Shown: piece after piece, positions 3,543 to 33,100 of the stretch
Numbering within the stretch: position 1 is the first letter of the stretch
Layout of the letters: every line of letters starts with the position of its first letter
DNA from: Phycisphaeraceae bacterium
GTDB taxonomy: Bacteria > Planctomycetota > Phycisphaerae > Phycisphaerales > UBA1924
Assembly: GCA_019636845.1 (NCBI GenBank)
Contig: JAHBWV010000001.1
Coordinates: 992,001-1,056,000, forward strand
Direction of reading: 5' to 3'
Length of the DNA stretch: 64,000 bases
Translations under genes and position numbers: made by a program
The notes under the pieces: generated by a model
The model's input: only the letters and a program-made list of their open reading frames with translations
Told to the model about the DNA's origin: nothing
The model's database searches: none

Positions 3543-4721
3543 CTAGTGCCGACCGGACAGGTTCGGAGGGAGAGGTGGGCCGAACTCTACCACTGCCCCC
3601 ATGGCCTCCGGAACCATCGCCGCGTAGTGCCTGCGGCAGATCTCAGGGCTATTCCCCATCAGCGTGGCGATCTGGAAGAGACTGACGCCGCGTTGGGCCA
3701 GGTGGCTGCCGAACGTGTGACGGAAGTCGAGGCAGGTCCAGGGGAGGCCCGCGTCGGCATTGGCCTTCGCGAGCGTCTGAGAGAAGTTGTCGACGTTCCA
3801 TCGGCATCCCTGCGGGCTCGGAAAGAGCCACCCGCCATCCGAGCGGCGAGGCGTCCAAGTGTCGAGTTCGCGGCGAAGGTCGCGGCTGATTGGAATGGCG
3901 CGGTTCTTCCGGGTCTTGGGCTGCCAGCTTTCGCCGCCGACCGTTTTCGCGCGAACGCGAAGCAGGCCGTTGGGTGACTGTGACGAGCCGCCAGCCCGAT
4001 CCTCGACCTGGAGCCACAGCAACTCCTCGCGGCGGACGCCGGCGTAGATGAGCGTCGCGACCATGGCCCGAAGCAGCGGGCGGGACGAAAGGGACTTGAA
4101 CTGCTCGGCGATCTGTTCAAGCGTCAGGTATCGGATCTCGGGGGCCGACTCGCGGTACCGGGCGACCTTCGCGGCTGGGTTGCGATCCAGGGGCAGACGG
4201 ACGAGATCGGTCTCCATCGCCCAGTTGAAGACCTTCGCGATGACCTCTCGGTATCGGTTGGCGGTCTTGGGCGCCAGTCCTCGGGCCTTGACGCGATCGG
4301 CGATGAACTCGGAGATCGTCGAGGTGCTGATCTCCTCGAAGCAAGGGGCACCGAGCGGCCAGAGTCGCTTGCGGCGATCGTCGGGCCTCCTGAGAGCCTG
4401 GCACTTCCTGGCCCGCGTGCTGTCGAGCTCGAGGGCTGGGCAGCATTCGCCGAATGCCTCGCGGAGATACGAGGTGTCCCGCCGCCAGGAGCGTTCGTGG
4501 CGGTGGGCTTTCATGTGCTCGATGTACGCCGCGACGACCTCGCCGATGGGCGTTCGAGTCGGGAGTGGGCAGTCGATGCCTCGGAGCTTTGCAGACTCGA
4601 ACTGGCGGAGCTTCTCCTTGGCGATCTGGAGAGAATCGGTGCCGAGACTCCTGCGGCGCTTGATTGAACCCTCGTACCACTGGACGTGAAACGTGTCGCC
4701 TCGCTTGATCAGGCTCGCCAT
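3543..4721 (-). CDS. Tyrosine recombinase (phage-type integrase)
   Basis: Site-specific recombinase expected to insert and excise the element. The N-terminal half (about 1-170) holds the arm and core DNA-binding regions; the catalytic domain is about 195-370. Visible: Arg I at 230 (YAGVRREEL), the Lys strand at about 269-277 (PKTRKNRAIPI), Arg II at 334 (LDFRHTFGSHL), and Tyr nucleophile at 366 (RRHYAAM). The usual His three residues before Arg II is Leu331, and the usual His/Trp after 'LMG' is Asn357. The ATG at 4721 has AGGAGG seven bases upstream. The gene points away from the tRNA and starts 131 bases from its 3' end, the normal arrangement for a tRNA-targeting integrase. Confidence 0.9.
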   Translation of the reverse strand: MASLIKRGDTFHVQWYEGSIKRRRSLGTDSLQIAKEKLRQFESAKLRGIDCPLPTRTPIGEVVAAYIEHMKAHRHERSWRRDTSYLREAFGECCPALELDSTRARKCQALRRPDDRRKRLWPLGAPCFEEISTSTISEFIADRVKARGLAPKTANRYREVIAKVFNWAMETDLVRLPLDRNPAAKVARYRESAPEIRYLTLEQIAEQFKSLSSRPLLRAMVATLIYAGVRREELLWLQVEDRAGGSSQSPNGLLRVRAKTVGGESWQPKTRKNRAIPISRDLRRELDTWTPRRSDGGWLFPSPQGCRWNVDNFSQTLAKANADAGLPWTCLDFRHTFGSHLAQRGVSLFQIATLMGNSPEICRRHYAAMVPEAMGAVVEFGPPLPPNLSGRH

Positions 4722-12206: not shown

Positions 12207-14750
12207 ATGTGCAGGGTGGCGGGGCGGACCGACGATACCAAACGGATGCCCGAAACGACTCCTGTTGTCGGTGTGCCGAAGAGCCACAACTCTGGTGCGA
12301 GCGCGAACATGCCGAGCGGCTCGGTGACGCGCGCTCAGATCGTCGCGATCGGGCAGTCCGATCGGCCGTGGGAGTTTGTCGGGCTGGCGCATCGGGCGCT
12401 AGCGGCGCACCCTTTGGATGCCGGGGTTCGGTTTCTTCTCGCGACGAACTACGCGAAGCTCGGGCTTCGGACCGCGGCGTCCGAGCAGATCGCACACCTG
12501 CCATCCGAAGTCGTCAACGACCCGGCGGTCATGTCGGTTCGGGCTGCGATTGAGCGGCTGGCGGATGATCGTGTCGGCGTGGATGAGCGTGAAGCGATCC
12601 TACGAGGCAATGTCGAGGCGATTATTGAGCGGGGTGCGCTCGGCGCGATGCATACGGACATGGTCCAGATCTGGCGCGAGGCGAGTGTGGGGATCGAGTG
12701 CTTCCGGACGCTCAGCGGCGGCGTTCTCTCTCGCGTGTGTGATCCGGCAGAGAGGGCGAACGCTGGAGGAGGGTGGCTGCGGTTCGCGAATGAGGTGCCT
12801 CCGGCGCGATCCCAGAGCACAAAGTCCGAAGGAGATCCCGTGGTTACGGCGTGGCCTCGGCCCGTCACGATCGAGGGATTCAATCCGTGGGTTTTGCGGC
12901 ACGTGGCTGATGGGCTTGCGCGATTGGACTCGGGGTATTGGGCGCGCATCAACGTGTTGGAATCGGACTTTCAGGCGTTCGTGCGAGCATTGTCGGTCTG
13001 TGACATCCGCGAAGTGCTCGGGCAGACGCGCGTGCATCTGTTCGTTGGCGAGGATGCTGTGGTTCGGTTCCGAGCGGATCTGGAGGCCCGGAACGGGACG
13101 CAGATTCTTGGTCCCGTGATCGTGTGCCGGGGGTGCGGCACGGGAGGAACGCCGGTTGTTGAGAATGTGGTTCGTGATGCCGTCATCGCGCAGAAGGCAG
13201 AGGAGACGCGGCTCGTCGGCGAGTTTGATCGTGATGTCTCTGTGCGGACGACGGCTGCGTGGCGAGAGCGATACGCATCTGCGCTTAGAAGAACGGGCAC
13301 ACCTCTGCGGCTGCTCGTGGCGACGTGCAGGTACACGACCTTTGTCAAACACTCAGCTCTCGACATTGCCGAGGCGATGCGTGATGCGGGGCATGAGGCG
13401 GAGGTCTTGGTTGAGCCGGATGAGTCGTCGCTGCTCTCGACGGTTGGATATCTGCGGAAGATCCGCGAGTTTGCGCCCGACATGGTGCTGGTGATCAATC
13501 GCACGCGAACGAACCTGAAGGGGATGATCCCAGCGGGGATTCCGATGGTGTGCTGGATCCAGGATGCGATGGCGGAGATCTATGACGATCAGGTGGGCGG
13601 GGCGCAGGGAGAGATGGACTTTCTGGTGGGGCACACAAACCACGACCTGTTCGCGAAGTTCGGGTACCCACGCGAGCGGAGTCTGATGCTTCCGGTGGTG
13701 GCGTCGGAGCGAAAGTTCCGCACGGAGCCGGCAGACGCTTCGTCGAGAGAGGCGTTCGTTTGTGACGTGGCGTATGTAAGCCACCACAGCGAGACACCGG
13801 ATCGGTTGCACGAGCGGGTGGCGGCGATGGCGGGGGATCTTGCGGTGGCGGCGACGCTTGAGGCGTTACGGCCTCGGGTACGCGATGCGGTGGCGAAGGC
13901 AGCGGAGATTCCGCTCCAGTCGACGCTTCGGCAGATCACGGAGGAGGCGGCGCGGCACGTGATCGGACGCGACGCGGACCCGCGCGTGCTCACACGCATT
14001 TGCAATCAGTACACGCTGCCTCTCGCGGATCGGTTGTTGCGGCACGAGACGCTGCGATGGGCCGCGTCGATCTGTGAGCGGCGGGGTTGGCGACTGATGA
14101 TTCACGGGCGCGGGTGGGATGGGCACGAGGCGTTCGCGAGGTACGCGGCACGCCCGATCGAGCATGGAGATGAGTTGCGAGCTTCGTATCAGGCGGCGGG
14201 GGCGCATCTGCACGTGTCGGTGCACTGGCCGTTCCATCAGCGAGTGATGGAGTGCGCGTTGTCGGGTGGGATGCCGCTGTGCCGCGCGAAATGGGACGAC
14301 CTTGCGATGCTGCACGGGTTTACGGCTATGCGGCTGGCGGATGCGGGTGTTGCGCACGCGTGCCGCGTGGGCGAGCCAAAGATGCATCTGTACGCCGTGG
14401 CGGATCATCCTGAGGCGATGCGGATGGTTGGGCTCTGGCAGCGAATGGGTGATGAGCGGGGGAACCGGCCGAACATTCCGACGACGGATGCGCTGCTGGA
14501 TGCGGCGCGACTGGCGTGGGAGCAGATGCCGCGGGAGAGGGATGTGGCATGGATGCTCGGCGATCCGAGCGAGACGATGTATAGGAATGAGATGGAGTTG
14601 GAGGGGGCGCTCGAGCGGGCGATCACGAGGCCACGATGGCGTGAGAGCGCGTCGGCTGGAATCGCGGGACGGGTGCGGAAGCAGTTCACGTATCGCGTGG
14701 CGATCGAGCGGATCATCGCTCTTGTAAGCGGGTCGCTTGGCGTGGCGTGA
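12207..14750 (+). CDS. Large glycosyltransferase, CgeB-like C-terminal half
   Basis: An 847-residue protein. The first part (to about 120) looks like helical repeats ('LAHRALAAHPLDAGVRFLL'), the middle (about 130-350) is unrecognised, and the glycosyltransferase part starts near 'RLLVATCRYTTFVKHSALD'. The C-terminal region has the CgeB/Glyco_trans_1_2 style segment 'LHVSVHWPFHQRVMECALSG', where the GT-B sugar-nucleotide pocket normally lies, preceded by 'WRLMIHGRGWDG'. Substrates are unknown. The start could be the ATG at 12207 or the one at 12246; neither has a clear ribosome binding site. It is the first gene of the surface-glycan cluster and ends six bases from the convergent methyltransferase gene. 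Confidence 0.75.
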   Translation: MCRVAGRTDDTKRMPETTPVVGVPKSHNSGASANMPSGSVTRAQIVAIGQSDRPWEFVGLAHRALAAHPLDAGVRFLLATNYAKLGLRTAASEQIAHLPSEVVNDPAVMSVRAAIERLADDRVGVDEREAILRGNVEAIIERGALGAMHTDMVQIWREASVGIECFRTLSGGVLSRVCDPAERANAGGGWLRFANEVPPARSQSTKSEGDPVVTAWPRPVTIEGFNPWVLRHVADGLARLDSGYWARINVLESDFQAFVRALSVCDIREVLGQTRVHLFVGEDAVVRFRADLEARNGTQILGPVIVCRGCGTGGTPVVENVVRDAVIAQKAEETRLVGEFDRDVSVRTTAAWRERYASALRRTGTPLRLLVATCRYTTFVKHSALDIAEAMRDAGHEAEVLVEPDESSLLSTVGYLRKIREFAPDMVLVINRTRTNLKGMIPAGIPMVCWIQDAMAEIYDDQVGGAQGEMDFLVGHTNHDLFAKFGYPRERSLMLPVVASERKFRTEPADASSREAFVCDVAYVSHHSETPDRLHERVAAMAGDLAVAATLEALRPRVRDAVAKAAEIPLQSTLRQITEEAARHVIGRDADPRVLTRICNQYTLPLADRLLRHETLRWAASICERRGWRLMIHGRGWDGHEAFARYAARPIEHGDELRASYQAAGAHLHVSVHWPFHQRVMECALSGGMPLCRAKWDDLAMLHGFTAMRLADAGVAHACRVGEPKMHLYAVADHPEAMRMVGLWQRMGDERGNRPNIPTTDALLDAARLAWEQMPRERDVAWMLGDPSETMYRNEMELEGALERAITRPRWRESASAGIAGRVRKQFTYRVAIERIIALVSGSLGVA

Positions 14751-14756
14751 CAGTTG

Positions 14757-15860
14757 CTACTTGCGGGGTGTCGCGACGGCGATGAGATACTCGGGTGATT
14801 CGCCTGGCTCGATGGGGCGGATTCCTGCGGCGGGCTCCGCGGCGGCGGGCTCGGTGCGGGCCCACTGTCCGTGCCACTGGATGTCTGTGAATCGGGTGTC
14901 GAGGAGTTCGCCGAGCGATTGCTGGGTGAAGGTGTGGACGTGGTGCTTGGTGAGCCCCGCGTTGTTTGGCGTGCTGAGCACGAGCGTGCCGCGTGGCTTC
15001 AGGATTCGGGCAAACTCTTCGATGAGGCCCTTGGCGTCCTGGATGTGCTCGATGGTCTCGAAGCTGACGCCGACGTCAAATGAGCTCGCGGGAAGGCCGG
15101 TTGCGGTCGCGCTGGCGCACATGAACCTGGTGTTGGGTGAGCCGAAGCGGCGCGTGGCGTAGTCGGTTGCGCGGGGCTCGATGTCGATGCCTGTGACGCT
15201 CGCGGCCCGACCTTGGATAGAGAGGAGTGAAGAGCCGTAGCCGGTGCCGCACGCGGCGTCGACGACGTGGCGGCCGGCGACGTAGCGCGCGGCGAACTCG
15301 TAGCGGCGGAGGTGGAGCTCGGTGCGTTCGGGCGGGAGCATGGGGAGGGTGGCGTCGTGGCGTTCGTCGCGATTCTCGGCGAGCCAGCGTGCGTCGGTTT
15401 CGGTGAGTCCCCAGCGGGTGATGAGGCGGGCGTAGATGTCGGCGGGGGATGGGCGCGCGGGGGCGGGTTCGCTGTAGATGCGGAGGAGGGGGATGCCGCG
15501 GAGGGCGGGGTTGCGGGTGGCGCGTTCGTAGATTTCGGATTCGTAGGTGTCGGAGCTGATGACGATTGCGTGGATGGAGCCGGGCGGATGGAGCGTGAGA
15601 TCGTGGGGACGGATGACAGGGACGCCACGCAGGGCGGGGACGCGGGGTGAATCGTCGAGGATGGCGACGACACGGACATCGTGCCATTGCCATGGCTGGC
15701 GGATGATGGGGAGCGTGTGGCGGCCCGCGCCATAGAGGGCGATTCGTCGGTAGTTGCGGGCTTCGCAGAGGGCGGCGGTGCGCTCAATGAGCATCTGGCA
15801 AAGCGTCTGGATCTCGCCGGCCTGTGGTGCGGAATCGGTGTGCAGTGCAGTCGTAGGCAT
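14757..15860 (-). CDS. SAM methyltransferase with N-terminal GAGRHT module
   Basis: Two domains. Residues about 37-130 form a Rossmann-like module: 'IALYGAGRHT' (40-49), an acidic pair after a strand (AILDD, 66-70), 'GVPVI' (79-83), and 'IVISSD' (99-104). Residues about 185-330 are a class I SAM-dependent methyltransferase with motif I 'VVDAACGTGYG' (199-209), acidic motif II 'GIDIEP' (224-229) and 'FARILKPRGTLVLSTPNN' (283-300). The N-terminal module recurs in three neighbours (17483-18505, 18609-21527 and 21609-23219). It probably methylates a sugar or glycan intermediate made by this cluster. It is convergent with the preceding glycosyltransferase and divergent from the next methyltransferase. 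Confidence 0.82.
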   Translation of the reverse strand: MPTTALHTDSAPQAGEIQTLCQMLIERTAALCEARNYRRIALYGAGRHTLPIIRQPWQWHDVRVVAILDDSPRVPALRGVPVIRPHDLTLHPPGSIHAIVISSDTYESEIYERATRNPALRGIPLLRIYSEPAPARPSPADIYARLITRWGLTETDARWLAENRDERHDATLPMLPPERTELHLRRYEFAARYVAGRHVVDAACGTGYGSSLLSIQGRAASVTGIDIEPRATDYATRRFGSPNTRFMCASATATGLPASSFDVGVSFETIEHIQDAKGLIEEFARILKPRGTLVLSTPNNAGLTKHHVHTFTQQSLGELLDTRFTDIQWHGQWARTEPAAAEPAAGIRPIEPGESPEYLIAVATPRK

Positions 15861-15956
15861 ATCCGTTCATCGGCTTGTGGGGTGCATGTGACCCGCGATT
15901 ATGCGAATCCTGAGGGTTCGGCCGATAGGAATGGGCCTAGCCATGGAGGTCCCGCC

Positions 15957-16538
15957 TTGCCGACCGACTATCAGGACATCTATGACCACGTCATCTCGTC
16001 GGAACCCCGGTACAACGCCGCCGAGAACTCCCCCGGATACGCCGCCTGCCTGATGTGGAGCGATCGCATTCGTGCTGCCGGAGGTCCTGCGTTGGATGTG
16101 GGGTGTGGTGTCGGCTTTGTAGTTCAGTTGTTGTCGGGGAACATCTTCGGGCTTGATTCTTATGGAACTGATATCAGCCGCGTGGCCGTCGAGCGTGCCG
16201 CAGCACGGACGTCAGCGGATCGTGTGCGTCTGATGGAAGGGGAGAAGATCCCGTTCGCTGACGGGCAGTTTGGCCTTGTGACGTGCTTTGATGTCCTGGA
16301 GCACATCGACGAGTCGGATGTTGTTGGTATGCGTGATGAACTCCGGCGTGTGCTGAGACCCGGCGGCCTGCTTTTCTGCACGGCTTCATGCCGTCCTGCT
16401 GGGATGGTGGATCATCATGGCGAGAACCTGCACCGCACCGTACGCGGCCCGGAGTGGTGGGCGGAGCGATTCAGTCCGGAGGAGTACCTGGTTCGGCGTG
16501 CACATTCTGATGTCGTCATGTGGTGGCGGAAGCCGTGA
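15957..16538 (+). CDS. Small SAM-dependent methyltransferase
   Basis: A class I methyltransferase of 193 aa with motif I 'ALDVGCGVGFVVQLL', an acidic end of strand two at 'YGTDIS', 'FDVLEHIDESD' (motif IV region) and 'LRRVLRPGGLLFC'. The frame is open far upstream, but that extension would run antisense through the neighbouring gene. I placed the start at the TTG at 15957 because GGAGG lies seven bases upstream and the protein then begins at the conserved fold. Its 3' end overlaps the convergent sulfotransferase gene by 23 bases. Likely a glycan- or small-molecule-modifying enzyme of the cluster. Confidence 0.75.
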   Translation: MPTDYQDIYDHVISSEPRYNAAENSPGYAACLMWSDRIRAAGGPALDVGCGVGFVVQLLSGNIFGLDSYGTDISRVAVERAAARTSADRVRLMEGEKIPFADGQFGLVTCFDVLEHIDESDVVGMRDELRRVLRPGGLLFCTASCRPAGMVDHHGENLHRTVRGPEWWAERFSPEEYLVRRAHSDVVMWWRKP

Positions 16539-17454
16539 TGGATCGCTCGTAGCCGAGCAATTCGAGGAGCGAGCCGGCGCGTGAATCGAATGCGGCGATC
16601 TGCTCATTGGTAAGCCATGACTGCCAATCACCCGCGACGCCCTTGCGGAAGAAACTGGTCGGATCTTCCTGGCCTGTGTTGCGGCCACCCGAGAGCATAC
16701 GAAATGACGCTGATTCGACGCATTGTTCGGCGTGGGCTGGGTCGGCCCCGATGAACCGGAGCACGGCTTCCGCGGTCTCGAACGGCGATGTCAGCAACTG
16801 TTCATACTTCACGGTCAGCGCGCTTTCAAAGATTGCCGTTGCTTGAAGGCCGGATGTCGCGGATTCGATCCAGAGCTCGGTGAAGAACTCGAAGGGTTGA
16901 GCGAGAACACGCCGGTTGCTGAGCGAGTCACGAATCTCGGTCGCTCTCTCGTGAGTGGCGGTTCGCAGCTGCAGATTTGACCAATGAGCCGCGCCGGAGA
17001 CGATGACGTCGCGTCCGTCGCGTACGAGGTTAATGAGTTTGAGGTCGGGGTTGTAGCGGTGGAGCTGTTCGACGGCGTGCAGGCCGGTGCTGAGATAGGG
17101 CGTGAACTTCTCGCCGTAGATGGGCTTGCCGGAGGCGCCGCGGGCGGTCATTGCGACGGCGTCGATGACATTGTGGAGGAGCGACTGGTAGAAGGCGGGG
17201 GTGTCCTGAGCGGGGACGGGTGGGTGGTAGTGGCGGGCGAGGTTTTGAACGTAGGACTCGACGGTGAGATTCGGGCCGCTCGGATTGTCCTTGTCGAAGT
17301 AGCGGCCGAAGAGGCGTGATTCGGAGCAGTGGACTTGGGGGTGAGCGGAGAGGAGGCGCTGCATCCAGGTGGTGCCGGACTTGGCGGAGGCAAGGACGAT
17401 GTAGTCGATGCCGCGTGAGCGGGGCGTGGGAGATGGATGGGGATGCGGCGTCAT
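16516..17454 (-). CDS. Sulfotransferase family protein
   Basis: Transfers sulfate from PAPS to a hydroxyl or amine. The 5'-phosphosulfate binding loop is visible at about 22-30 (ASAKSGTTW), the hallmark of the Sulfotransfer_1/3 families. A region resembling the 3'-phosphate site follows at 'INLVRDGRDVIVSGAAHW'. C-terminal 'FFRKGVAGDWQSWLTNEQI' is also typical of the family. The start at 17454 gives a 312-residue protein; the open frame continues upstream but only as a shadow of the next gene. Lying inside a glycosyltransferase/methyltransferase cluster, it probably sulfates the glycan, which would be unusual for most bacteria but fits planctomycetes. Confidence 0.88.
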   Translation of the reverse strand: MTPHPHPSPTPRSRGIDYIVLASAKSGTTWMQRLLSAHPQVHCSESRLFGRYFDKDNPSGPNLTVESYVQNLARHYHPPVPAQDTPAFYQSLLHNVIDAVAMTARGASGKPIYGEKFTPYLSTGLHAVEQLHRYNPDLKLINLVRDGRDVIVSGAAHWSNLQLRTATHERATEIRDSLSNRRVLAQPFEFFTELWIESATSGLQATAIFESALTVKYEQLLTSPFETAEAVLRFIGADPAHAEQCVESASFRMLSGGRNTGQEDPTSFFRKGVAGDWQSWLTNEQIAAFDSRAGSLLELLGYERSITASATT

Positions 17455-17482
17455 GTCTCGGGGCTTTGAGTGCGTGCGTTTC

Positions 17483-18505
17483 TCAGGGCTTCTCGAAGCG
17501 AGCGAGGAAGGCCCAGCCGATTTCGGGGCCAACCTGCTCGATCCTGAGACCCAGCGACTTGGCGCTGACGCGGAGCTGGTCCATGGAGTTGTAGAACATG
17601 ATGCCGTACTTGCCATCCATGTCGGGGCGGTGCTGCTCGCGCCAGATCTGCATGGCACGGTCGTTCCACGTGACGAAGTGGATGAGGGCCTTGCCGCCGG
17701 GCTTCAGGACGCGCGTGATGGATTCGAGGAACTGATGGACGAGGTCGGCTTTGAAGTGGACGAAGACGTCCATCGAGTAGACGAGGTCAACGGAGCCATC
17801 GGGGATGCCGCCGAGCTTGGCTTTCTCGTCGTGATGGAGCGAGAGTTTGCCGAGGTGCTTGCTGAAACGGTGCTCGATGGCTTCGTAGAGAAGGCGTGCG
17901 GCGTAGTCCACAGCGTGGTACTTGCCGGCTTTCTCGATGACGTGCTGGGTCCAGAGGCCGGTGCCGCTGCCGATCTCGCAGACCGTCATGCCGGGCTTGA
18001 CGTGCTGCATGAGCGGTTCGAGGAGCGAGGACCACGCGACAGGGTTGGCGGGGGGATACTCGCGGTCGTAGAGCGGATTGAGGCCGCGTGAGGTGGCGAT
18101 GGAGTATTCGTACTGCTCGATGAGCGTGCCGTCCCATCCTTTGTCGACGAAGGGCTTGGGATAGGCCAGTAGGTAGACGCCGGCTTCGCGGAGGCGGCCG
18201 CGGTTTGCCCAGATCTTGTCGAAGTTGGGGCCTGCGGCGGTGATGATCACGCCTTTAACGCCCTTGGCGAGGGCGTCGCCGAGTTCGAGGACCGGGAGCC
18301 CGGCCCAGGTCTTGCCGATCTTCTTTGAGTCGTCGTCGATGATGCCTGCGAGGACGCCCTGGGGGGCGTGCATGAGCGGGCAGAGTCGCTGGACGAGGTC
18401 GCCTGCACCGTAGAGGGCGATCGGGGTGCTGCCCATGGTAACCATGCGCTGAACGAGCTCTTCGAACTGGCCGTGGTCGATGGGGAGTTGCGGCTTCTGG
18501 CTCAT
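17483..18505 (-). CDS. SAM methyltransferase with N-terminal GAG-type Rossmann module
   Basis: The N-terminal module (about 28-117) carries 'IALYGAGDL' (29-37), 'AGIIDDDSKKIG' (53-64), 'GLPVL' (69-73) and 'GVIITAAG' (85-92). It is a divergent copy of the module in the neighbouring proteins. The C-terminal domain (about 165-310) is a class I methyltransferase with 'TVCEIGSGTGLWTQHV' (174-189), 'YHAVDYA' (196-202), 'LVYSMDVFVHF' (241-251) and 'ITRVLKPGGKALIHF' (263-277). GGAGG sits six bases before the ATG at 18505. It lies 28 bases upstream of the sulfotransferase on the same strand, so the two likely form an operon and act on the same product. Confidence 0.82.
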   Translation of the reverse strand: MSQKPQLPIDHGQFEELVQRMVTMGSTPIALYGAGDLVQRLCPLMHAPQGVLAGIIDDDSKKIGKTWAGLPVLELGDALAKGVKGVIITAAGPNFDKIWANRGRLREAGVYLLAYPKPFVDKGWDGTLIEQYEYSIATSRGLNPLYDREYPPANPVAWSSLLEPLMQHVKPGMTVCEIGSGTGLWTQHVIEKAGKYHAVDYAARLLYEAIEHRFSKHLGKLSLHHDEKAKLGGIPDGSVDLVYSMDVFVHFKADLVHQFLESITRVLKPGGKALIHFVTWNDRAMQIWREQHRPDMDGKYGIMFYNSMDQLRVSAKSLGLRIEQVGPEIGWAFLARFEKP

Positions 18506-18608
18506 GGGTGTCCTCCGGATGGCGGCGCAAGGATGGCTCGCGGGCCTGATGCCACTTATCGGCCTGTCCGGAGGGGGTTATTGAGCCCGGCACAAGTAGT
18601 GGATGAGA

Positions 18609-21527
18609 TTATCGGGAGTTGGTGGCGATCTCCGCGGCACTGGAGCTGTTGGGGTGTTCCCTCAGTCGATCGCAGAGAGGTGCTGTGCTGTAGACGCGGA
18701 TGACTTCAATGCCCGCCTCGCGGAAAGGAGCGGCGTTCTTCCAGAGCTGGTCCTCGAACACGTCGCTGGAGAGGACAATGGCATCGGGGTTGAGTTCACC
18801 AAGGGCGGCTGCGGGTGAGACGATGGGCAGCCCGAAGAGGCGAGCGTGAGCGGGCGGCTTGTCGTCGATGAAGCCAACGAAGGGCCAGACGGGCCAGCGG
18901 CCGTCGATAAAGAGGGCGTGGCGATCGCGGGTGTGGCGGCCCGCGCCGTAGATGGCGATGCGCCGGCGGCCGCGGTGGATGGCGTCGAGAACGGCGCGAT
19001 GCAGGTGGGCTTCGTGCGGCGTGGGCACGAGCATGGGCGAAAGTGCGACGCCGAGGCCGGAGGCACGCCAAGTCGCGACTTCCTCGGGCGTGGGAGAGGG
19101 ATCGAGAGCGCGGACGAGGACGGCGTCGCACGCGAGCCCGTCGATGGGGGCGGGGCGGCCTCGCGCGATGCGCTTGTATCCGGCATCGCGGAGGGCTTGC
19201 AGGCAGTATGCGTCGGCGGCGGCGGGATCATCGTTCCAGGGCTTCAGCCATTGCCACGGTTCCATGATGCGGAGCGCGGCGTCGGATGGTGTTCGATCAA
19301 GGGGCTCGGCGAGCGCGGCGTCAAAGACAGCGCAGTACTTCGATGCAACCGTGTCGAGGCCGATGGTGGAGCGGACGCGTTCCCAGGCGCGGCGACCCAT
19401 GTGGTTGAGCATTGAGCCGCCGGCGTTGCGATCGCGCCAGAGCGCGGCGAGCCGCTCGGACATCTGATCGACTGCGCCGATGGGGACAACGACGCCTGAT
19501 TCACCGTCGGTGAGCCATTCATCGACGCCGCTGCGGACCTTGGTGACCGCAGGGACGACGCCCGCGCCCATGGCTTCGAGCATGGTGACGCTTGTACCCT
19601 CGAACTCGCTGAGGAGAACGCTGATGTCCATGGTGGGGAGGAAGCACTCGACCCATGCGGGATCGCGTCGGCCGTGGATGCGGACGACCCCGTGGGTGAG
19701 GGCGCGTTCTGAGAGTTTCGCGGTCCAGGCGGCCATGTCGTGGCCATCGCCGATCATGTGCAGTTCGTAGGAGACCTTGCGGGCTTCGAGGGCGTCGATG
19801 AGGAGGAGGAAGTCGCTGATCCGTTTCTGGATCTCGACCATGCGCCCGATGTAGGCGAGTTTGAGCGGTCCGGGCGCGGACTGAGGGCGGGGTTCTGCGG
19901 CGACGGGCACGCCGTAGACGATGCGGTGGATGGGGCGGGCGTACTTCTTTGCAAGGGGGGCGAGCCACGACTCGCATGCCGCGCTCACGGCGACTGCGGC
20001 GCACCAGCGTGAGTATGTTGCGGCGAGGTCTCGGTAGTAGGGTTCATCGGAGTGGGCGATCGCGATCGAGCGGACGCCCTCGTATGTGAGGCGCGTGGCG
20101 GCCATGTGGCAGATGTCGCCGTAGTTGGGCAGCACGATATCGGGTTCCATGCGGCGGAGGGATTCGACCAGCGTTTCGAGTCGTTCGGTCGGGTCTGCCA
20201 TCGGGTCAAGCACGCAGAGTGAGGTGAGACCATCGGGATCGATGTCGAAGTCGCCGAAGAGGTTGCCGGAGGGATTGTCGGCCTTGGTCACCACGATGAG
20301 GGTGCGGACGTCATAACCGAAGTTGTGTGTTGCACACGAACGCGCGAGGCGCAAGGCCCAGCTCATGACGCCGCCGACGGGCGAGCCGTCACAGGCGACG
20401 CAGTTCACGACACGCTTCTTGCCCTGAACGCGAGGGATGCGAGCCGGTAGGGAGGTGACTGCGGGGACTTCAGGAGGGGACACGCGCGGGACACGCTTTC
20501 CGGTATTGAGGTCTGCGAGCAGATCGGCAAACACATCGGCCGCGGGCGTGTCGGGCGTGGCGACGGAGCCGTGCTGGAGCGTAAGGTCCCGGGCTTGTGC
20601 CTGGAAGAGTTCTGGTGTTGGTGCGAGAACGCTTTCGAGCAGGGTCGCGAGGCCGTTGGTGGGATCGAGTTGCGGCGAGGACTTGGAGGACGAGGGTGGC
20701 GCGGGTGCCGGAGGAGTCGGGGAGAGTGACGCGGAGGCGACGGCAGCCGAAGGGTCGTTGCGCCAGACCCAGGGGGTGCGCTGCCAGAGGGGTCCGGGGT
20801 GGGGGTGGATCAGCATCGTGGGGCGACCGGCGGCCATGGACTCGAGCGCGAGCGTGGAAGGAGTGGTGAGGACTGCGGAGGCGTCGGAGAAGCAGTCGCG
20901 GAGGGTTCGGGTGTCGTTGAGGACGCCGAGGTCGATCTCCAAGCCCCCGGTGAGGCGCCAGATGGGGCGGAGGTTGCTGCGGCACAGTTCCTGCTGGAGG
21001 AGCAGCAACGCGGCCAGCAGCCGCGAACGCTCTTCGGCGTTGAAGGCCGGTCTATTGGCAGTAGCGATGAGGACAGCTGGTCTTGTATCGAGGCAGGGAG
21101 GGGGGATCGGGGCAGGGAACGTGGCGTCTATACGCGGGAGACCTGTGGCGACGGCGTCGTTGCCCCATGATCTCAAGAGGGCTTCATCCATCGGGCCGGC
21201 GCAGGCGACGATCTGGGCGAGGGCAGGACGAAGAAAGTTCTTCTCCGCAAAGGGGTTATGGAAGGTGTTGCGATACTCCAGCACACCGTCCATGAGCAGG
21301 ACAGAGGTCGCGCCGGAGAGATGAGCTTCTCGCAAGGCCCATCGGGAGAGTGGGGACTGGGTCTCTTTCACGACCACGACACTGGGTGTATGGAGGCGGA
21401 GAAGTTCTGTGTTGGCTGGGGTGAGGAAAGCTGTCGCGTGTCCACGCGCTCGGAGGGCCTCAGCGACACCAGGAAAGTGGTCGGTGGTGGTCGGATCCTG
21501 CACGATCACGATGGGGGGATAGGCCAT
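18609..21527 (-). CDS. Three-domain glycosyltransferase with C-terminal GAGRHT module
   Basis: 972 residues. Region 1 (about 1-330) resembles a GT-B or CDP-glycerol transferase-like fold ('IVQDPTTTDHFPGVAEALR', 'AVATGLPRIDATFP', 'ALESMAAGRPTMLIHPHPG') and is followed by a Pro/Ser-rich linker. Region 2 (about 375-760) is a GT4 glycosyltransferase ('LAYIGRMVEIQKRISDFLL', 'LLSEFEGTSVTMLEAMGAG'). Region 3 (856-972) is the GAGRHT module ('IAIYGAGRHT', 'GFIDDKPP', 'LFGLPIV', 'IVLSSDVFEDQLW', 'EVIRVYS'). It may add two sugars or use region 1 for acceptor recognition. It is divergent from the gene at 21609, which ends in the same module. Confidence 0.8.
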   Translation of the reverse strand: MAYPPIVIVQDPTTTDHFPGVAEALRARGHATAFLTPANTELLRLHTPSVVVVKETQSPLSRWALREAHLSGATSVLLMDGVLEYRNTFHNPFAEKNFLRPALAQIVACAGPMDEALLRSWGNDAVATGLPRIDATFPAPIPPPCLDTRPAVLIATANRPAFNAEERSRLLAALLLLQQELCRSNLRPIWRLTGGLEIDLGVLNDTRTLRDCFSDASAVLTTPSTLALESMAAGRPTMLIHPHPGPLWQRTPWVWRNDPSAAVASASLSPTPPAPAPPSSSKSSPQLDPTNGLATLLESVLAPTPELFQAQARDLTLQHGSVATPDTPAADVFADLLADLNTGKRVPRVSPPEVPAVTSLPARIPRVQGKKRVVNCVACDGSPVGGVMSWALRLARSCATHNFGYDVRTLIVVTKADNPSGNLFGDFDIDPDGLTSLCVLDPMADPTERLETLVESLRRMEPDIVLPNYGDICHMAATRLTYEGVRSIAIAHSDEPYYRDLAATYSRWCAAVAVSAACESWLAPLAKKYARPIHRIVYGVPVAAEPRPQSAPGPLKLAYIGRMVEIQKRISDFLLLIDALEARKVSYELHMIGDGHDMAAWTAKLSERALTHGVVRIHGRRDPAWVECFLPTMDISVLLSEFEGTSVTMLEAMGAGVVPAVTKVRSGVDEWLTDGESGVVVPIGAVDQMSERLAALWRDRNAGGSMLNHMGRRAWERVRSTIGLDTVASKYCAVFDAALAEPLDRTPSDAALRIMEPWQWLKPWNDDPAAADAYCLQALRDAGYKRIARGRPAPIDGLACDAVLVRALDPSPTPEEVATWRASGLGVALSPMLVPTPHEAHLHRAVLDAIHRGRRRIAIYGAGRHTRDRHALFIDGRWPVWPFVGFIDDKPPAHARLFGLPIVSPAAALGELNPDAIVLSSDVFEDQLWKNAAPFREAGIEVIRVYSTAPLCDRLREHPNSSSAAEIATNSR

Positions 21528-21608
21528 AGGTCAATCATCGACCGACCTTGATGTCAAGCGGGAAAGACTGTTTCTCCCCCCTTCCGAAGGCCGACGAACC
21601 TAGACATC

Positions 21609-23219
21609 ATGGCGATTTCTACGGTGACATCGGCGACGGCCAAGATGCATGTTCCAGCTGCGGCTTCTGCTGCGAAAGCATTGAACCCGGTATTGATCAG
21701 TCTGCCCCACGGTCTCGATCTCGGGGGCGTGACCACATGGGCGGTTCGGTTGGCCAACGGGCTTGCAGAGCGTGGCCGCGAGGTCGCGATGCTGGTCCAT
21801 CCGAGAGGCGAGGGGCAGCCGGCGGCGGTGGTGGAGTTGCACCGAAAGGTGAGGCGGATTGAGCCCAGCGGCTGGCCGTCGATGCATCACATCGAGGGCG
21901 ACCTCTCGCCGTTCCTTCCAGCGTACCGCGATGCGGTCCGTCAGATGTCGGATGAGACGGGCGCGCCGGTCGTTCTGATGCCGAACATCCTGGGTGACTC
22001 GTACGGATTGGCTGCGGCGCTTTCGCTGACAGACTTTGATCGTGTACGGGTGCTCGGTTGGCAGCACACGGATTCAGACTACGACACGGGACTTCTGCTC
22101 AGGTTCGAGCCGATCATCTCGAAGTATGTCGCGATCGACGAGCGGGCAATTTGTGTCCTGGGTGCCAAGCTGCCTCATCGTCGTGGCGACATCACGACGG
22201 TGCGCCACGGCGTCCGCGTACCGTATCTGCCGCCCGAGAGGCGAGAACCGATCGAAGGGCGCCCGGTGCGGGTTGTGTACACGGGTCGGATCGAACACTT
22301 CCAGAAGCGAGTGCTCTCATTCGCGTATCTCTCTGACGAGCTGACACGTCGTGGCGTTGATCATGAGATCGTGGTGGTTGGCGATGGGCCAGCAGCTGCG
22401 GAGTTCGATGCGATGATCGCCTCGCGACCGAAGGTGGTGAGGAAAGGGCTGGCGGGCACGAAGGAAGTCGAGGGGTGGTTGAAGTGGGGGGATGCGTTCG
22501 TGCTGGGGTCACGGTTTGAGGGGCTGTGCATCAGCCGCATCGAGGCGATGGCGCACGGGTGTGTGCCCTTGGTGACAAATGTGAACTCGGGCGCAGCGAC
22601 TGGGATCGAGCCGGGAGTGAGCGGGCTGATTGTCGATGCGCAGCCGGGCGATGACGAGAAGGCGGTGGGTGTTGCGCTCGCAGACGCCGTGCGGCGGTTC
22701 ATCGGGAGCGATCGGAACGCCATGGCAATCGCGGCGTGGAACGCCGCACTCTCGCAGTTCAGTATCGACGAGCACGTGGAGGGCGTTTCGAAGGTGCTGG
22801 ATGAGATCGGGCGGAGCCCGGCGCGGCCGTGGCGAGCGTCTTGGCCGTGCGCGTTCAGTTTCTCACCCAACTCGCCGGGATGCTCAGGGACGGTGCCGTC
22901 GCACGGGCCGCGGCGGATGAAGGAGGTGCTGGAGTTGCTCGCGGGCCGGAAAGTTGCGATTCATGGGGCGGGGCGTCACACGATCGAGCTGGCGGGGGTT
23001 CTTTCGGAATCGGCGGCGACAATCGTGGCGATCACGGATGACAACCGTGATCGTTGGGGTAAGCCGTTTCTGGGTTGGCAGGTCTGGGAGCCGGCGCGCC
23101 TTGCAGCAACAGGCGCGACAGACGTCGTGATCTCGTCTTGGCTGCACTCAGAGACGATCTGGGGTCGCCGCGGTGTGTACGAGTCGCAGGGACTCCGAGT
23201 GCACCGGCTGTATGAGTGA
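21609..23219 (+). CDS. GT4 glycosyltransferase with C-terminal GAGRHT module
   Basis: 536 residues. The GT4 part (about 15-400) shows 'HGLDLGGVTTWAVRLANGL' near the N-terminus, the central 'VVYTGRIEHFQKRVLSFAYL', and the nucleotide-sugar region 'VLGSRFEGLCISRIEAMAHG' with the EX7E-like pattern. The C-terminal 89 residues (448-536) are the recurring module: 'VAIHGAGRHTIEL', 'AITDDNRDRWG', 'DVVISSWLHSETIW' and 'RVHRLYE'. Between them is a short variable linker. The ATG at 21609 is 81 bases from the divergent glycosyltransferase gene, so both may be controlled from one intergenic region. Confidence 0.82.
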   Translation: MAISTVTSATAKMHVPAAASAAKALNPVLISLPHGLDLGGVTTWAVRLANGLAERGREVAMLVHPRGEGQPAAVVELHRKVRRIEPSGWPSMHHIEGDLSPFLPAYRDAVRQMSDETGAPVVLMPNILGDSYGLAAALSLTDFDRVRVLGWQHTDSDYDTGLLLRFEPIISKYVAIDERAICVLGAKLPHRRGDITTVRHGVRVPYLPPERREPIEGRPVRVVYTGRIEHFQKRVLSFAYLSDELTRRGVDHEIVVVGDGPAAAEFDAMIASRPKVVRKGLAGTKEVEGWLKWGDAFVLGSRFEGLCISRIEAMAHGCVPLVTNVNSGAATGIEPGVSGLIVDAQPGDDEKAVGVALADAVRRFIGSDRNAMAIAAWNAALSQFSIDEHVEGVSKVLDEIGRSPARPWRASWPCAFSFSPNSPGCSGTVPSHGPRRMKEVLELLAGRKVAIHGAGRHTIELAGVLSESAATIVAITDDNRDRWGKPFLGWQVWEPARLAATGATDVVISSWLHSETIWGRRGVYESQGLRVHRLYE

Positions 23220-28005: not shown

Positions 28006-29682
28006 ATGCGTGTAGTCTTGGTCAACTGGGCAAGAGTATGGGATGGAGCCGGGATCGGCGGTGGGGTAAATGGGTACGCGCAGGCGCTGGCGCTCGAATT
28101 GAGCGACCTCGGGCACGAGGTGTGGTGGATCTGCTCCGGTCAGACGTATATTGCGGGCGAGCCGTTGCATGTGCGTCGGCAGGAAGACTGGCTCGGCGTT
28201 CGAGTGCTCGAGATCATCAACTCTCCGGTGATGGCTCCGTCGATCGTCCAGTTCAAGGACCCGGGTGCCGAGATGTCGTCGCCGGAACTCGAAGCCCTGT
28301 TCACGAGGATCATCGGGTGGATCGAGCCGGATGTCGTTCACTTTCACAACGTCGAGGGGCTGAGCGCAGGATGTGTGAAGGCGGCGTCGGGGGTCGGGCG
28401 GCAGCAATCACGGACGGCTGTTGTTTACAGTCTGCATAACTACCACACGATCTGCCCGCAGGTGTACCTCTTGCAGGGGCATCGACACGTCTGCCACAAC
28501 GCGGAGGGGGGTGCTGCATGCGCGAGGTGCGTGCAATCTCCCGACCCCGCGGAGACCCGTCGTCAACGTGAAGCTGAATGGCTGCCCACCAAGGCCGAAC
28601 GCCCGACACTCCGAGCGATCGGAGAGGAGATTCGCTCGTTCGTTGTCCGAAACAATGCGTCAGATCGTGCTCCGGGGCGTGTGGTTCAGGGGCAAGGCGA
28701 TCTCATCGCTCCGATGGGACTTGATCCGAACACCGACAAGCGAGGTCGCACGGCCCGGGTGCTCGCTGAGCGGGAGCAGCAGAAGAATCCTTCGCCGACA
28801 CTGCGAGTGCTGAGCAACGAGATCACTCCAGATCCTTCGATCGAGTCGCCTGTGAATGAATACGGGCATCGACGCCGGGCGATGATCGATGCGTTGAATT
28901 CGTGTGATGCGGTGCTGGCAGTGTCCGACTTCGTGTCGTCGAAGTTCCTGAGCATGGGTGTGCGGAGCGAGATCCTGCGTACGCAGCACATCGGGACGAC
29001 GCTCAACCGCGTCGTTGCCCGGCGTCGTTCGCTCGCGTTTGCGCCTCCACCTTTCGACCCGGTTCGTCCGCGCCCGATTCGGATGACGTTCATGGGCGTG
29101 AATCATTGGTACAAGGGCCTGCCCTTCTTTCTCGACACGCTCGAGACGCTCGACCCAGAGACACTCGCGGCTTTCCATTTGTCGATCTTCGCTCAGGGAG
29201 CGGACCAGACCGAATGGATGGTGCGGCGATTGGAGCCGCGACTTGCGGGCGTGAGGATCCAATACGGCTACGACCAGGCGGATATTCCCTGGATACTCGG
29301 CGGCGCGGACCTTGGGCTGGTTCCGAGTGTCTGGTGGGACAACGCGCCGCAGACCGTCTTTGAGTTCTTCGCCTGCTCGGTGCCGGTTCTCGCCTCTGCG
29401 GTAGGCGGCATTCCCGACTTTGTGAAGCATGGCGTGAATGGCATGTTGTTCCGTTCAAACGACAGAGATGATCTCGCTGCAAAGCTTCGCTTGCTCGCTG
29501 CGGATCGCTCGATTCTGTCGTCCTTGCGTGCGAATGTTCGGCCGCCGAAGGACATCGGTGAGCATGCGAGAGAGTTGGTCGGCGTCTACGCTGAGTGTGT
29601 CCGCATTCGCGGACGTGATCCGATCGATGCGATTCGCGAGCGGGACGTTCCGCCAATGTCAAGCCCCGGAGTCACGAGTTGA
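28006..29682 (+). CDS. GT4 glycosyltransferase with Cys-rich insertion (first of three-gene operon)
   Basis: 558 residues, GT-B fold. N-terminus 'RVVLVNWARVWDGAGIGGG' fits the acceptor domain. Around residue 144 is a segment with 'HNYHTICPQVYLL' followed by a further 'CHNAEGGAACARC', probably a metal-binding knuckle. A long poorly conserved insertion (about 185-290) follows. The donor half begins near 'MTFMGVNHWYKGLPFFLDTL', and the nucleotide-sugar site is 'VPSVWWDNAPQTVFEFFACS'. It is a clear paralog of the third gene (31331-33100). Its stop lies 54 bases before the chosen start of the GT2 gene, though a TTG at 29679 would overlap it. Confidence 0.83.
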   Translation: MRVVLVNWARVWDGAGIGGGVNGYAQALALELSDLGHEVWWICSGQTYIAGEPLHVRRQEDWLGVRVLEIINSPVMAPSIVQFKDPGAEMSSPELEALFTRIIGWIEPDVVHFHNVEGLSAGCVKAASGVGRQQSRTAVVYSLHNYHTICPQVYLLQGHRHVCHNAEGGAACARCVQSPDPAETRRQREAEWLPTKAERPTLRAIGEEIRSFVVRNNASDRAPGRVVQGQGDLIAPMGLDPNTDKRGRTARVLAEREQQKNPSPTLRVLSNEITPDPSIESPVNEYGHRRRAMIDALNSCDAVLAVSDFVSSKFLSMGVRSEILRTQHIGTTLNRVVARRRSLAFAPPPFDPVRPRPIRMTFMGVNHWYKGLPFFLDTLETLDPETLAAFHLSIFAQGADQTEWMVRRLEPRLAGVRIQYGYDQADIPWILGGADLGLVPSVWWDNAPQTVFEFFACSVPVLASAVGGIPDFVKHGVNGMLFRSNDRDDLAAKLRLLAADRSILSSLRANVRPPKDIGEHARELVGVYAECVRIRGRDPIDAIRERDVPPMSSPGVTS

Positions 29683-29735
29683 CGATACTGACGACATTGC
29701 GTGGGCATCTTCGTGAGCCGCTCGAGGAAGCTGCG

Positions 29736-31334
29736 ATGACGCGTGTCGCCGCGATTATCGTGACATGGAATCGAAAGGAACTGGTCTCGGCGGTGCTGGA
29801 GGCCTTGTCGCGACAGTCGATCGGCGCCGGTGTGATCGATCTCGTCGTCGTGGACAACAACTCGACAGATGGGACACTCGATCGGCTTGTGGAGCGGTGG
29901 TCTCCGGACGTAATCGTTGATAATCCAACGCCGCACGCGCACCAGCCGTGTTTCCGACCACGCTCGCAGCGGGCCGGACCGAATCAAGGAGGGTTCAGGT
30001 CGCTCACGATCGTGCGGAACTCAGAGAATCTCGGCGGGTGTGGCGGGTTCAATACAGGGTTCGAGTACATCGCCCACGCCCTCGACACAGACGAAGCGAG
30101 GCGACAAGGGCTCGCGCCCGATTATGTCTGGCTGGTGGACGATGACATCGACATCGCGCCCGACACGCTCGATCGGTTGGTATCGACGATGAGGTCGGAT
30201 ACTTCGATCGGGCTCGTCGGTTCACGGACGATGGATTACAACGCGCGCGAGGAGACGATCGAGACGACGATTTACTTCGACCCGAGCACCGGGTTCATGG
30301 GCGATCACCCCGCTCCCGGGCACAGGCTGTACGACTCCCATGCCAGGTGGGTCGAGCGCGTGGGAGGTCCGAAGGGCAGGCGCGAGTACAGCGGCGTTCG
30401 TGACGTGGACATCGTTTCTGCTTGTTCGATGCTCGCTCGCTGGGCCGCGGTGCGCGAGATTGGTTTCTGGGACTACAGGTACTTCATCTATTGTGATGAT
30501 GCGGACTGGTGTCTGCGATTCGCAAGGGCCGGGTATCGCATCGTCTGCGATCTGGACGCGGTGATCTACCACACACCATGGCACCACAAGCTCACGCCCG
30601 CTCGCCTGTACTACGCACAACGGAACATTCTGTGGGTCATCCAGAAGGTGATCGAGCCGGAGCGTTCGCGACGTGTGCTTGAGATGCGAGTACGTGGACT
30701 CATGCGCGATGCACTGAGAGCCGCAATGAATCGACGCCTCTTCCACGCGGAGATCATCCGCAGGAGCGTCGAAGACGCGGCCGTGGGCAGGGTCGGCAAG
30801 CTCGACGAGCAGGGGCCGAGATCCGAGCCGATCATCGACGCGTTCGCTCGCCTCGGACTCTTGTCGGGTACGCCGCGGGTTGCCGTTATGTGCGGATCAC
30901 CCGACTCATTGGAGTCGTCCGCCAAACTCCGCGCGGCAGTACATCCAGCCGGGAGCGGGATTCAGTGGATCGAGATCGTGCGGAACGACATTCCGGGCCA
31001 CGACCACCCTGCCCCGCCAGGTGTCAAGCGGATCGTGTACTCCGGCCGGCGTCGCTCGAAGCTGCGCCGGCAGATGTCTCTGCTTTTCCGTCCTGTGCGA
31101 GCTGCGGTGGTCTTTGATCAGACGAACGACTTCCCGCTGCTCGGCGGTGAACACAATCTGCATATCGACAGGAAGAACCCCGGTGTCGTGCAGGTTGAAG
31201 AGGATGGCGCGGCGGCGCGATGTGAGTTCCTCTCGAAATGGCTTGGAACTCGCCTGAGGGCTATCCGATGGTGCCGCACCGGCGTTCCCCCGGCGCATGA
31301 ATCCCGACCCGTACCCATCGAGAGTTGTGCATGA
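29736..31334 (+). CDS. GT2 glycosyltransferase with unknown C-terminal domain
   Basis: A family 2 (GT-A) transferase. Its start reads 'VAAIIVTWNRKELVSAVLEAL'; 'VVDNNSTDGTLDRLV' forms the UDP site; 'WLVDDDIDIAP' carries the DxD-type metal motif; and 'CDDADWCLRFARAGYRIV' is the catalytic-base region. This pattern matches the GlfT2/rhamnosyl-galactosyl transferase type. Residues after about 340 form a separate domain ('VAVMCGSPDSLESSAKLRA', 'AAVVFDQTNDFPLLGGEHN') that I do not recognise. I chose the ATG at 29736 (GAGGA eight bases upstream) over the TTG at 29679. Its stop overlaps the next gene start (ATGA at 31331), so translation is coupled. Confidence 0.82.
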   Translation: MTRVAAIIVTWNRKELVSAVLEALSRQSIGAGVIDLVVVDNNSTDGTLDRLVERWSPDVIVDNPTPHAHQPCFRPRSQRAGPNQGGFRSLTIVRNSENLGGCGGFNTGFEYIAHALDTDEARRQGLAPDYVWLVDDDIDIAPDTLDRLVSTMRSDTSIGLVGSRTMDYNAREETIETTIYFDPSTGFMGDHPAPGHRLYDSHARWVERVGGPKGRREYSGVRDVDIVSACSMLARWAAVREIGFWDYRYFIYCDDADWCLRFARAGYRIVCDLDAVIYHTPWHHKLTPARLYYAQRNILWVIQKVIEPERSRRVLEMRVRGLMRDALRAAMNRRLFHAEIIRRSVEDAAVGRVGKLDEQGPRSEPIIDAFARLGLLSGTPRVAVMCGSPDSLESSAKLRAAVHPAGSGIQWIEIVRNDIPGHDHPAPPGVKRIVYSGRRRSKLRRQMSLLFRPVRAAVVFDQTNDFPLLGGEHNLHIDRKNPGVVQVEEDGAAARCEFLSKWLGTRLRAIRWCRTGVPPAHESRPVPIESCA

Positions 31335-33100
31335 AGCCGGGCGTGCATCACGAGACTGTGGATCAGCGCCACGAGCGGCCATTGAACTGGCCTGTCGCAG
31401 AGCGTCCGCTGCGCATCGCGATGCTCGGATGGGCGCGTCTGTCATTCCAGGCCCGCGAGGGATCCGGGTACAACCTCTCTGCGTCGGAGCTCGCGGCTGG
31501 CCTCGCGCAGATGGGACACCATGTCTTCTATCTTCGATCGGGCATGGACTATTCGCTCCGCCCCGGGACCTACGTCAAGCGATTCGAGTCGTGGCGTGGT
31601 GTCGAATGCTTTGACCTCTTCAACGCGCCGAATCTCTCGCCTGCTGCGGCAAACTTCGGGCGACTTGCGACAGAGCTGGCATGCCCGGTGCAGTCGCGTG
31701 TGGTGCTCGCTTGGCTTGCACAGATCGACGCCGAGGTTGTCCATGTCCATTCGCTCGAGGGGTATCCGCTCGATCTGATCGGCGCGATGAGGCAGGCGGG
31801 ATATGCCGTTGTTGTCACTCCCCATAACTACTGGTATGCGTGCCCCCAGGTTGATCTCTTGCACAAAGAGCGCGAGGTCTGCATGGACTTCGACGGAGGG
31901 CGGCGGTGTGCTGGATGTCTCTCACCTGAGGCGGGTGATCGCGTGCTCGCACGCCGAAAGCGAGAGCAGACGATGGTCCGCCTGTTCGGGCTTGCGCCGT
32001 ACCAGAGCGCGCGGCAGGTCTGGCTGTTCTTCAAGAAGCATGCGACGCGATCTGGTCGAGCGAAGCGTCCGATCAAGCGGGACCCGCCGCCGCTTGATCC
32101 GGAGATCGGCATGGGGTTCGATGTCGGTGATCCCGCGGCGCACGCCGGAACCATTGAACACAATCTGCGGCTTGATGAGAACGACAAGATCGTCTCGCTT
32201 GGGCGTTCGCCCCTCGATCAGAACGAGCGATTCCTGGCAGGGGAGCATCATCTCGTGGTGTTGAATGAGTTCGGCGAGCGGCGGTCGGCCGGCATCGATG
32301 CGCTGAATCAGGCGAACATTGTCATTCCACCGAGCCGCTTCGTGTTGAACACATTCCTTCGCATGGGTATGCGTCCCGAGATAGGTCGCCATGTTCGCCT
32401 CGGACAGGTCCATTTCGACCAGTTGCACCGTCTGGTCAAGCGTTCGCCGTTTTACCGCGTGCGGCCGTGGTCGCCGGAGTCAGAACGCCCGCTGCGATTC
32501 GCGTTCCACGGGACCGTCAGGAACAACAAAGGGCTTGAGATCCTTGCGAGCGCGATCCCGCTGCTGTCGAAGCAGGTCAGGCAGCGATGCCACTTTCAGA
32601 TTCGTGCTTCGGGGTGGGACTGGACGTTCCGCAAACGCCTGAGTCATTATCCGGAGGTGCAGTTCTGCGGCGGGTACGACATGCTGCAACTATTGGCCTC
32701 TGTCGGCGAGTACGACGTAGGAATCCTGCCTCATGTGTGGTTCGAGAACTCGCCGCTTGTCCTGCTCGAGCATCTTCACGCAGGGAAGTTCGTCGTCGCC
32801 TCCCGGCTCGGAGGTCCGCCGGAGTGGATCAACGAGGGGAAGAACGGGATGCTCTTCCCGGCTGGAGATCCGGAGGCGCTCGCGGCATGTATCACGCGAT
32901 TGGTCGGCGGTGAGGTTGCTGTCCCGAGCCCTGAGGAGATCCACCGAGCCAGCGTGCTGCGCTCATACCCGGATCATGTGCGAGAGGTCTCTGGGATCTA
33001 CGCGGAAGCACTCGGGGCAAGCGCGGGACAACCCAAGAGCAACAGCACAGATGGAAACTCTGATGCCGGGTTGCACCGAAACGCGTATGGAGCGGTCTGA
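31331..33100 (+). CDS. GT4 glycosyltransferase, paralog of the first gene in the operon
   Basis: 589 residues, GT-B fold. It shares with the gene at 28006 the 'HNYWYACPQVDLL' segment (from residue 165), the following Cys pair 'RRCAGCLSPEAG', a long insertion, and 'NEFGERRSAGIDALNQ' before the donor domain. The donor half has 'FHGTVRNNKGLEILASAI', 'LPHVWFENSPLVLLEHLHAG' and 'GGPPEWINEGKNGMLFPAGD'. The start is set by the ATGA overlap with the GT2 gene; a TTG six bases upstream is possible. The pair of paralogs around one GT2 suggests that consecutive sugars of a repeat unit are added by related enzymes. Confidence 0.83.
   Translation: MKPGVHHETVDQRHERPLNWPVAERPLRIAMLGWARLSFQAREGSGYNLSASELAAGLAQMGHHVFYLRSGMDYSLRPGTYVKRFESWRGVECFDLFNAPNLSPAAANFGRLATELACPVQSRVVLAWLAQIDAEVVHVHSLEGYPLDLIGAMRQAGYAVVVTPHNYWYACPQVDLLHKEREVCMDFDGGRRCAGCLSPEAGDRVLARRKREQTMVRLFGLAPYQSARQVWLFFKKHATRSGRAKRPIKRDPPPLDPEIGMGFDVGDPAAHAGTIEHNLRLDENDKIVSLGRSPLDQNERFLAGEHHLVVLNEFGERRSAGIDALNQANIVIPPSRFVLNTFLRMGMRPEIGRHVRLGQVHFDQLHRLVKRSPFYRVRPWSPESERPLRFAFHGTVRNNKGLEILASAIPLLSKQVRQRCHFQIRASGWDWTFRKRLSHYPEVQFCGGYDMLQLLASVGEYDVGILPHVWFENSPLVLLEHLHAGKFVVASRLGGPPEWINEGKNGMLFPAGDPEALAACITRLVGGEVAVPSPEEIHRASVLRSYPDHVREVSGIYAEALGASAGQPKSNSTDGNSDAGLHRNAYGAV

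Follow-up and report, generated by a model that had tools for sequence, protein, structure and literature searches.

Four neighbouring proteins from a glycan cluster of a Phycisphaeraceae bacterium carry a similar segment, which raises the question of what one module contributes to two methyltransferases and two glycosyltransferases. The cluster was analyzed in a window of 64,000 nucleotides, to which all coordinates refer unless a locus is named. An earlier note, made from the letters of this window, had related the segment to the N-terminal domain of PglD and had proposed a ligand-binding or docking module that brings enzymes of one pathway to the same nucleotide sugar or carrier.

The module comprises about 90-95 residues. 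Copy 1 (15459-15761, minus strand; GAGRHT ... LDD ... VISSD ... RIY) is N-terminal in a class-I methyltransferase of 367 aa (14757-15860, minus strand; Methyltransf_11), and copy 2 (18146-18439, minus strand; GAGDLV ... IDDD ... ITAAG) is N-terminal in a methyltransferase of 340 aa (17483-18505, minus strand; Methyltransf_11/25). In the 972-aa ORF 18609-21527 (minus strand), a part without Pfam match is followed by a GT4 glycosyltransferase domain with an E-x7-E motif and by copy 3 at the C-terminus (18675-18977, minus strand). Copy 4 (22935-23216, plus strand), which was used for structure prediction, is C-terminal in a GT4 glycosyltransferase of 536 aa (21609-23219, plus strand), where E-x7-E is also present. 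All four ORFs of the earlier note were found, with module limits agreeing within a few residues, and the enzyme types, two methyltransferases with Methyltransf_11 and two GT4 enzymes, were verified with Pfam. The same holds for the motif order GAGxHT - DD - G-x-PV - hhSS - hY and for the RhY ending in three of the four copies. Copy 2 is indeed the most divergent, with GAGDLV replacing GAGRHT and ITAAG replacing ISSD; its protein has a relative with 91% identity over the whole length in another locus (L107).

The segments of the four proteins are homologous. Local-alignment scores compared with 500 shuffles resulted in pairwise Z values of 18.0, 13.1, 11.9, 10.2, 7.4 and 4.9. The lowest value belongs to the pair of methyltransferase copies, which are nevertheless homologous because both glycosyltransferase copies link them. 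A genome search with one copy as query yielded the remaining ones at E = 3e-9, 8e-5 and 1e-3, and exactly four copies were detected in the 3.67-Mb genome with the module profile.

According to the Pfam annotation of the window, three of the seven cluster enzymes have no module: a sulfotransferase (16516-17658, minus strand), of which a module-bearing counterpart exists in a relative (L068), a Methyltransf_11 methyltransferase (15681-16538, plus strand), and a TPR-like and GT-B-like glycosyltransferase with weak Pfam matches (12207-14750, plus strand). No sugar-nucleotide synthesis genes were seen among the neighbours scanned. A few kb downstream (28006-33100) lies another series of glycosyltransferases (GT4, GT2, GT4), with the module in none of them. 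Elsewhere in the window, a rolling-circle replication-type protein (PF23343, PHROG 3419) adjoins a phage-type integrase (1081-2154 and 3543-4721), which may represent a small replicon that integrated, or what is left of one.

The AF2 model of copy 4 is Rossmann-like (pLDDT 91.6). Its best Foldseek match is 3nkl, a domain of the CapD-N/CoA_binding_3 type (E 1.8e-5, TM 0.72), directly followed by NAD-binding Rex and amine dehydrogenase domains; VioB, PerB and the FkbM methyltransferase 2py6 were matched as well. Sequence profile searches against the PDB also gave 3nkl (7e-7 and 1.2e-7) and, with weaker scores of which several are insignificant alone, perosamine N-acetyltransferase, 2py6, VioB, WbaP and KijD1. 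The full-length model of the divergent methyltransferase (17483-18505) is poor (pLDDT 54.8, 5 rows) and was left out of the fold search; the strand and helix order of its module agrees. In the viral fold library nothing was found at E <= 0.001.

None of the Pfam and NCBIfam models exceeded its cut-off for the modules of the window. The best sub-threshold Pfam match is PglD_N (PF17836; E 0.02-0.07); CoA_binding and Methyltransf_14 match less well. Copy 1 scores 14.1 bits against PglD_N (E 0.073) and stays below the curated cut-off of 23.4 bits, which is passed by related copies in L040 (26.7 bits), L063 (30.1 bits) and L110 (29.3 bits). CoA_binding_3 (PF13727) was not matched by any window copy. 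In other Planctomycetota, matches of the module profile lie within the CoA_binding_3/PglD_N part of CapD-type dehydratases and of WbaP-type transferases, overlapping PF13727 in L093, L099 and L100. Due to these profile matches, the predicted fold and the overlap in other Planctomycetota, the module is placed in the PglD_N/CoA_binding_3 superfamily, with which it shares the Rossmann-like fold, a GxG loop after strand 1 and an Asp pair after strand 2. The relation to PglD claimed before is thereby upheld: the predicted fold is nearest to CapD-N, and PglD-type domains are also matched. Judged by sequence and model, the module appears to form a subfamily of its own, not catalogued so far, with the signature GAGxHT - DD - SS - E - RhY.

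CoA_binding_3, found as the N-terminal or DUF domain in CapD/PglF dehydratases and in WbaP-type phosphoglycosyl transferases, resembles the module in its fold, in the GAG loop and DD, and as an accessory to glycan enzymes; in WbaP it responds to uridine nucleotides. In contrast, the module has GAGxHT where 3nkl has GAGSAG, and its fusion partners are GT4, methyltransferase, sulfotransferase and other enzymes. PglD_N, the N-terminal, NDP-sugar-binding domain of the sugar N-acyltransferases PglD, NeuD, PerB and VioB, likewise has a GxGxH loop and, following strand 2, an acidic pair (DD, DN or DA), whereas the module has an additional conserved SS...E...RLY, is often C-terminal and is without the left-handed beta-helix acyltransferase, which is absent from the window proteins (partners Methyltransf_11 and GT4). 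Methyltransf_14 (PF08484), the C-terminal domain of NDP-hexose C-methyltransferases such as KijD1 (5t64), is similar in its weak profile match and its fusion to SAM methyltransferases, and true members are borderline hits of the profile (L072, L073). Among the window copies, however, the best E value for it is 0.17, no zinc-binding Methyltransf_13 was detected in the window proteins, and the domain order of the window methyltransferases differs. The N-terminal region of the solved FkbM methyltransferase 2py6 matches the module by fold and weakly by sequence, and FkbM-module fusions occur in relatives and in Paenibacillus (L111), but 2py6 belongs to a methyltransferase family other than those of the window enzymes. 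We know of no reported function for this N-terminal domain.

A profile search of related planctomycete genomes, as suggested in the earlier note, detected the module in 38 of 61 genomes, including 31 of 37 of the same family. In the phylum-wide search, scores above 60 bits are confined to this family; the other matches score 30-49 bits, ordinary CapD/WbaP domains among them. The partners comprise GT4, GT2, Methyltransf_11/25, FkbM, Methyltransf_24, TylF, GDSL hydrolase, sulfotransferase, Capsule_synth, hexapeptide acyltransferase, C-methyltransferase, besides several groups that no Pfam model matches. Among the partners, hexapeptide acyltransferase and C-methyltransferase represent ordinary PglD and Methyltransf_14 proteins at the profile edge. 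The module is therefore not the domain of a single enzyme family, the case that would have spoken against the earlier proposal, and across the family its partners include no fewer than ten types of glycan-modifying enzyme. In 60 of 81 cases the copy ends within 40 residues of the end of its ORF. It is carried by 30 of 44 GT4, 7 of 12 GT2 and 4 of 6 FkbM ORFs of the fetched loci, fractions that are upper bounds since the loci were picked for containing the module. Some ORFs have two copies, in tandem or alternating with GT4 domains (L063:4181-8635, L066:4838-9616, L040:7596-9839, L042:9647-11626). One group without Pfam match (fam1; L053:9455-10705, L047:4395-5594 and seven others) always has the module at the C-terminus and contains a stretch, GGDDM.PDP, that resembles a GT-A-type metal-binding motif.

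A whole-protein query returned three related loci only. Outside the phylum, related domains occur in the Paenibacillus FkbM-like enzyme and on an Azospirillum oryzae plasmid (L110), where the protein adjoins radical SAM, carbamoyltransferase and GNAT genes. As tblastn against plasmids and phages gave few matches, the spread beyond Planctomycetota is sampled only. In another planctomycete, a winged-helix protein is fused to a related module with FDSD replacing DD (L084:1018-1773 and L112), and its gene shares a small contig with flagellin and methyltransferase genes. This neighbourhood prompted the idea of a flagellin-glycosylation island, which is unsupported because flagellins are mostly distant from module loci (1.6 Mb in the genome studied here, and mostly far away among those listed for relatives).

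The conserved residues point to a ligand site. Over 81 copies, conservation amounts to 99% for G11, 96% for G13, 84% for H15, 80% for T16, 99% for D35, 95% for D36, and 85% each for S67 and Y93. Mapped on the model, the conserved residues all directly follow strands 1, 2, 4 and 5, and the ends of such strands are the usual ligand edge of the sheet. The DD pair aligns in two queries with chain positions 40 and 41 of 7l7y, a comparison that assumes the chain numbering to be that of the paper, in which the uracil is held by Asp41 of Pcryo_0637, with Asp40 close to the ribose (PMC8040287). At the second position of the pair, the UDP-sugar enzymes seen have D, VioB (TDP) has N and PerB (GDP) has A, a pattern that, in this small sample, suggests uridine. 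It is from the Asp pair that we infer binding of an NDP or NDP-sugar. In WbaP, the DUF is stabilised by UMP, UDP and UTP, UMP inhibits the enzyme with an IC50 of 4.1 uM, and the authors assign a nucleotide-sensing and dimerising role to this domain (PMC10942596).

The module is thus read, with a probability of roughly 0.6, as an accessory domain that binds a uridine nucleotide or UDP-sugar and either presents NDP-sugars to its catalytic partner or senses UDP/UMP; the choice between presentation and sensing is speculative. The ligand would lie in the predicted crevice of GAGxHT, DD and SS. For the methyltransferases, as for the fusions of relatives with sulfotransferase and acyl-modifying enzymes, presentation is the simpler idea: the module may grip the NDP end of the sugar nucleotide, in the way of the PglD-type N-terminal domain, while the catalytic domain modifies the sugar. 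For the GT4 enzymes, whose E-x7-E motif is intact, sensing is simpler: here the module would add another nucleotide site, either detecting UDP/UMP or passing the donor on, along the lines proposed for WbaP. The winged-helix fusion of L084, in which the domain is used away from catalysis, fits a sensing role.

Several points speak against uridine nucleotide binding. The fold alone is also compatible with NAD binding, a serine that in Pcryo_0637 touches ribose and phosphate is probably replaced by a glycine in the module, and a second site is not obviously needed where a GT4 enzyme already binds its donor elsewhere. In the review of the WbaP paper, one referee pointed out that UMP might inhibit by competition at the active site (PMC10942596). 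The lack of sugar-nucleotide synthesis genes among the scanned neighbours also counts against it. Of the earlier proposal, the idea of a shared ligand-binding module stands, given the relation to PglD, the conservation in the ligand crevice and the several enzyme families; attachment to the same nucleotide sugar or carrier, or mutual docking, is unsupported in view of these missing genes, the three module-free cluster enzymes and the grouping of copies described below.

The strongest alternative, still unlikely, is a docking module whose copies pair as homo- or heterodimers and keep the enzymes of a pathway together, the nucleotide site being vestigial or structural. For 59 of 78 copies another copy is found within 15 kb, compared with 1.5 expected under random gene placement, a null that ignores that glycan genes cluster anyway. 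The two-copy ORFs fit docking too, as does the WbaP DUF, which makes most dimer contacts of that enzyme (PMC10942596). However, the most conserved positions sit at the ligand edge, and in related loci, too, enzymes of module-bearing clusters are often without a module. On a module tree with few columns and many weak forks, 14 changes of partner type were counted (37.8 after shuffling) and 46 changes of locus (44.1 after shuffling). The copies thus seem to group by enzyme type and not by genome, which argues that the modules travelled with their enzymes, were not homogenised within a locus, and show no sign of co-adapted pairs.

Clearly less probable is a structural relic, a folding or stabilising appendage without ligand that was spread by fusion: the GT4 catalytic motifs are intact by themselves and the module is missing from many related enzymes of the same loci, but 81 copies that otherwise diverge retain the glycines and the Asp pair at 95-99%. 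A redox-sensing or catalytic domain for NAD(P) or another dinucleotide, as in Rex, is very improbable despite the Foldseek ranks of Rex and the amine dehydrogenases, as the Rex-type GxGxxG is absent from the window copies (GAGRHT or GAGDLV instead; GxGxHT as the general loop), the domain has just ~95 residues and sequence profiles favour the CapD-N/PglD-N group.

The module is mostly explained by a known superfamily; unusual is the breadth of its fusions within one bacterial family, for which no describing paper could be found in the open-licence literature. Its signature GAGxHT - DD - SS - RhY flags glycan-modifying enzymes without Pfam domain, such as fam1. Domains of this kind have now been encountered on phosphoglycosyl transferases, dehydratases, acyltransferases, methyltransferases, glycosyltransferases and a sulfotransferase. 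A bolder idea, possible but rather doubtful, is that in this family one nucleotide-reading module sits on most kinds of surface-glycan enzyme, from transferases to methyl-, sulfo- and acyl-modifying enzymes, and that a single pool of a nucleotide or nucleotide sugar thereby tunes or feeds the entire assembly line. If uridine nucleotides are read everywhere, the domain would serve bacterial glycan assembly as a general element of control or substrate handling, and the unexplained conservation of the N-terminal domain of WbaP and PglF would be one case of a wider rule.
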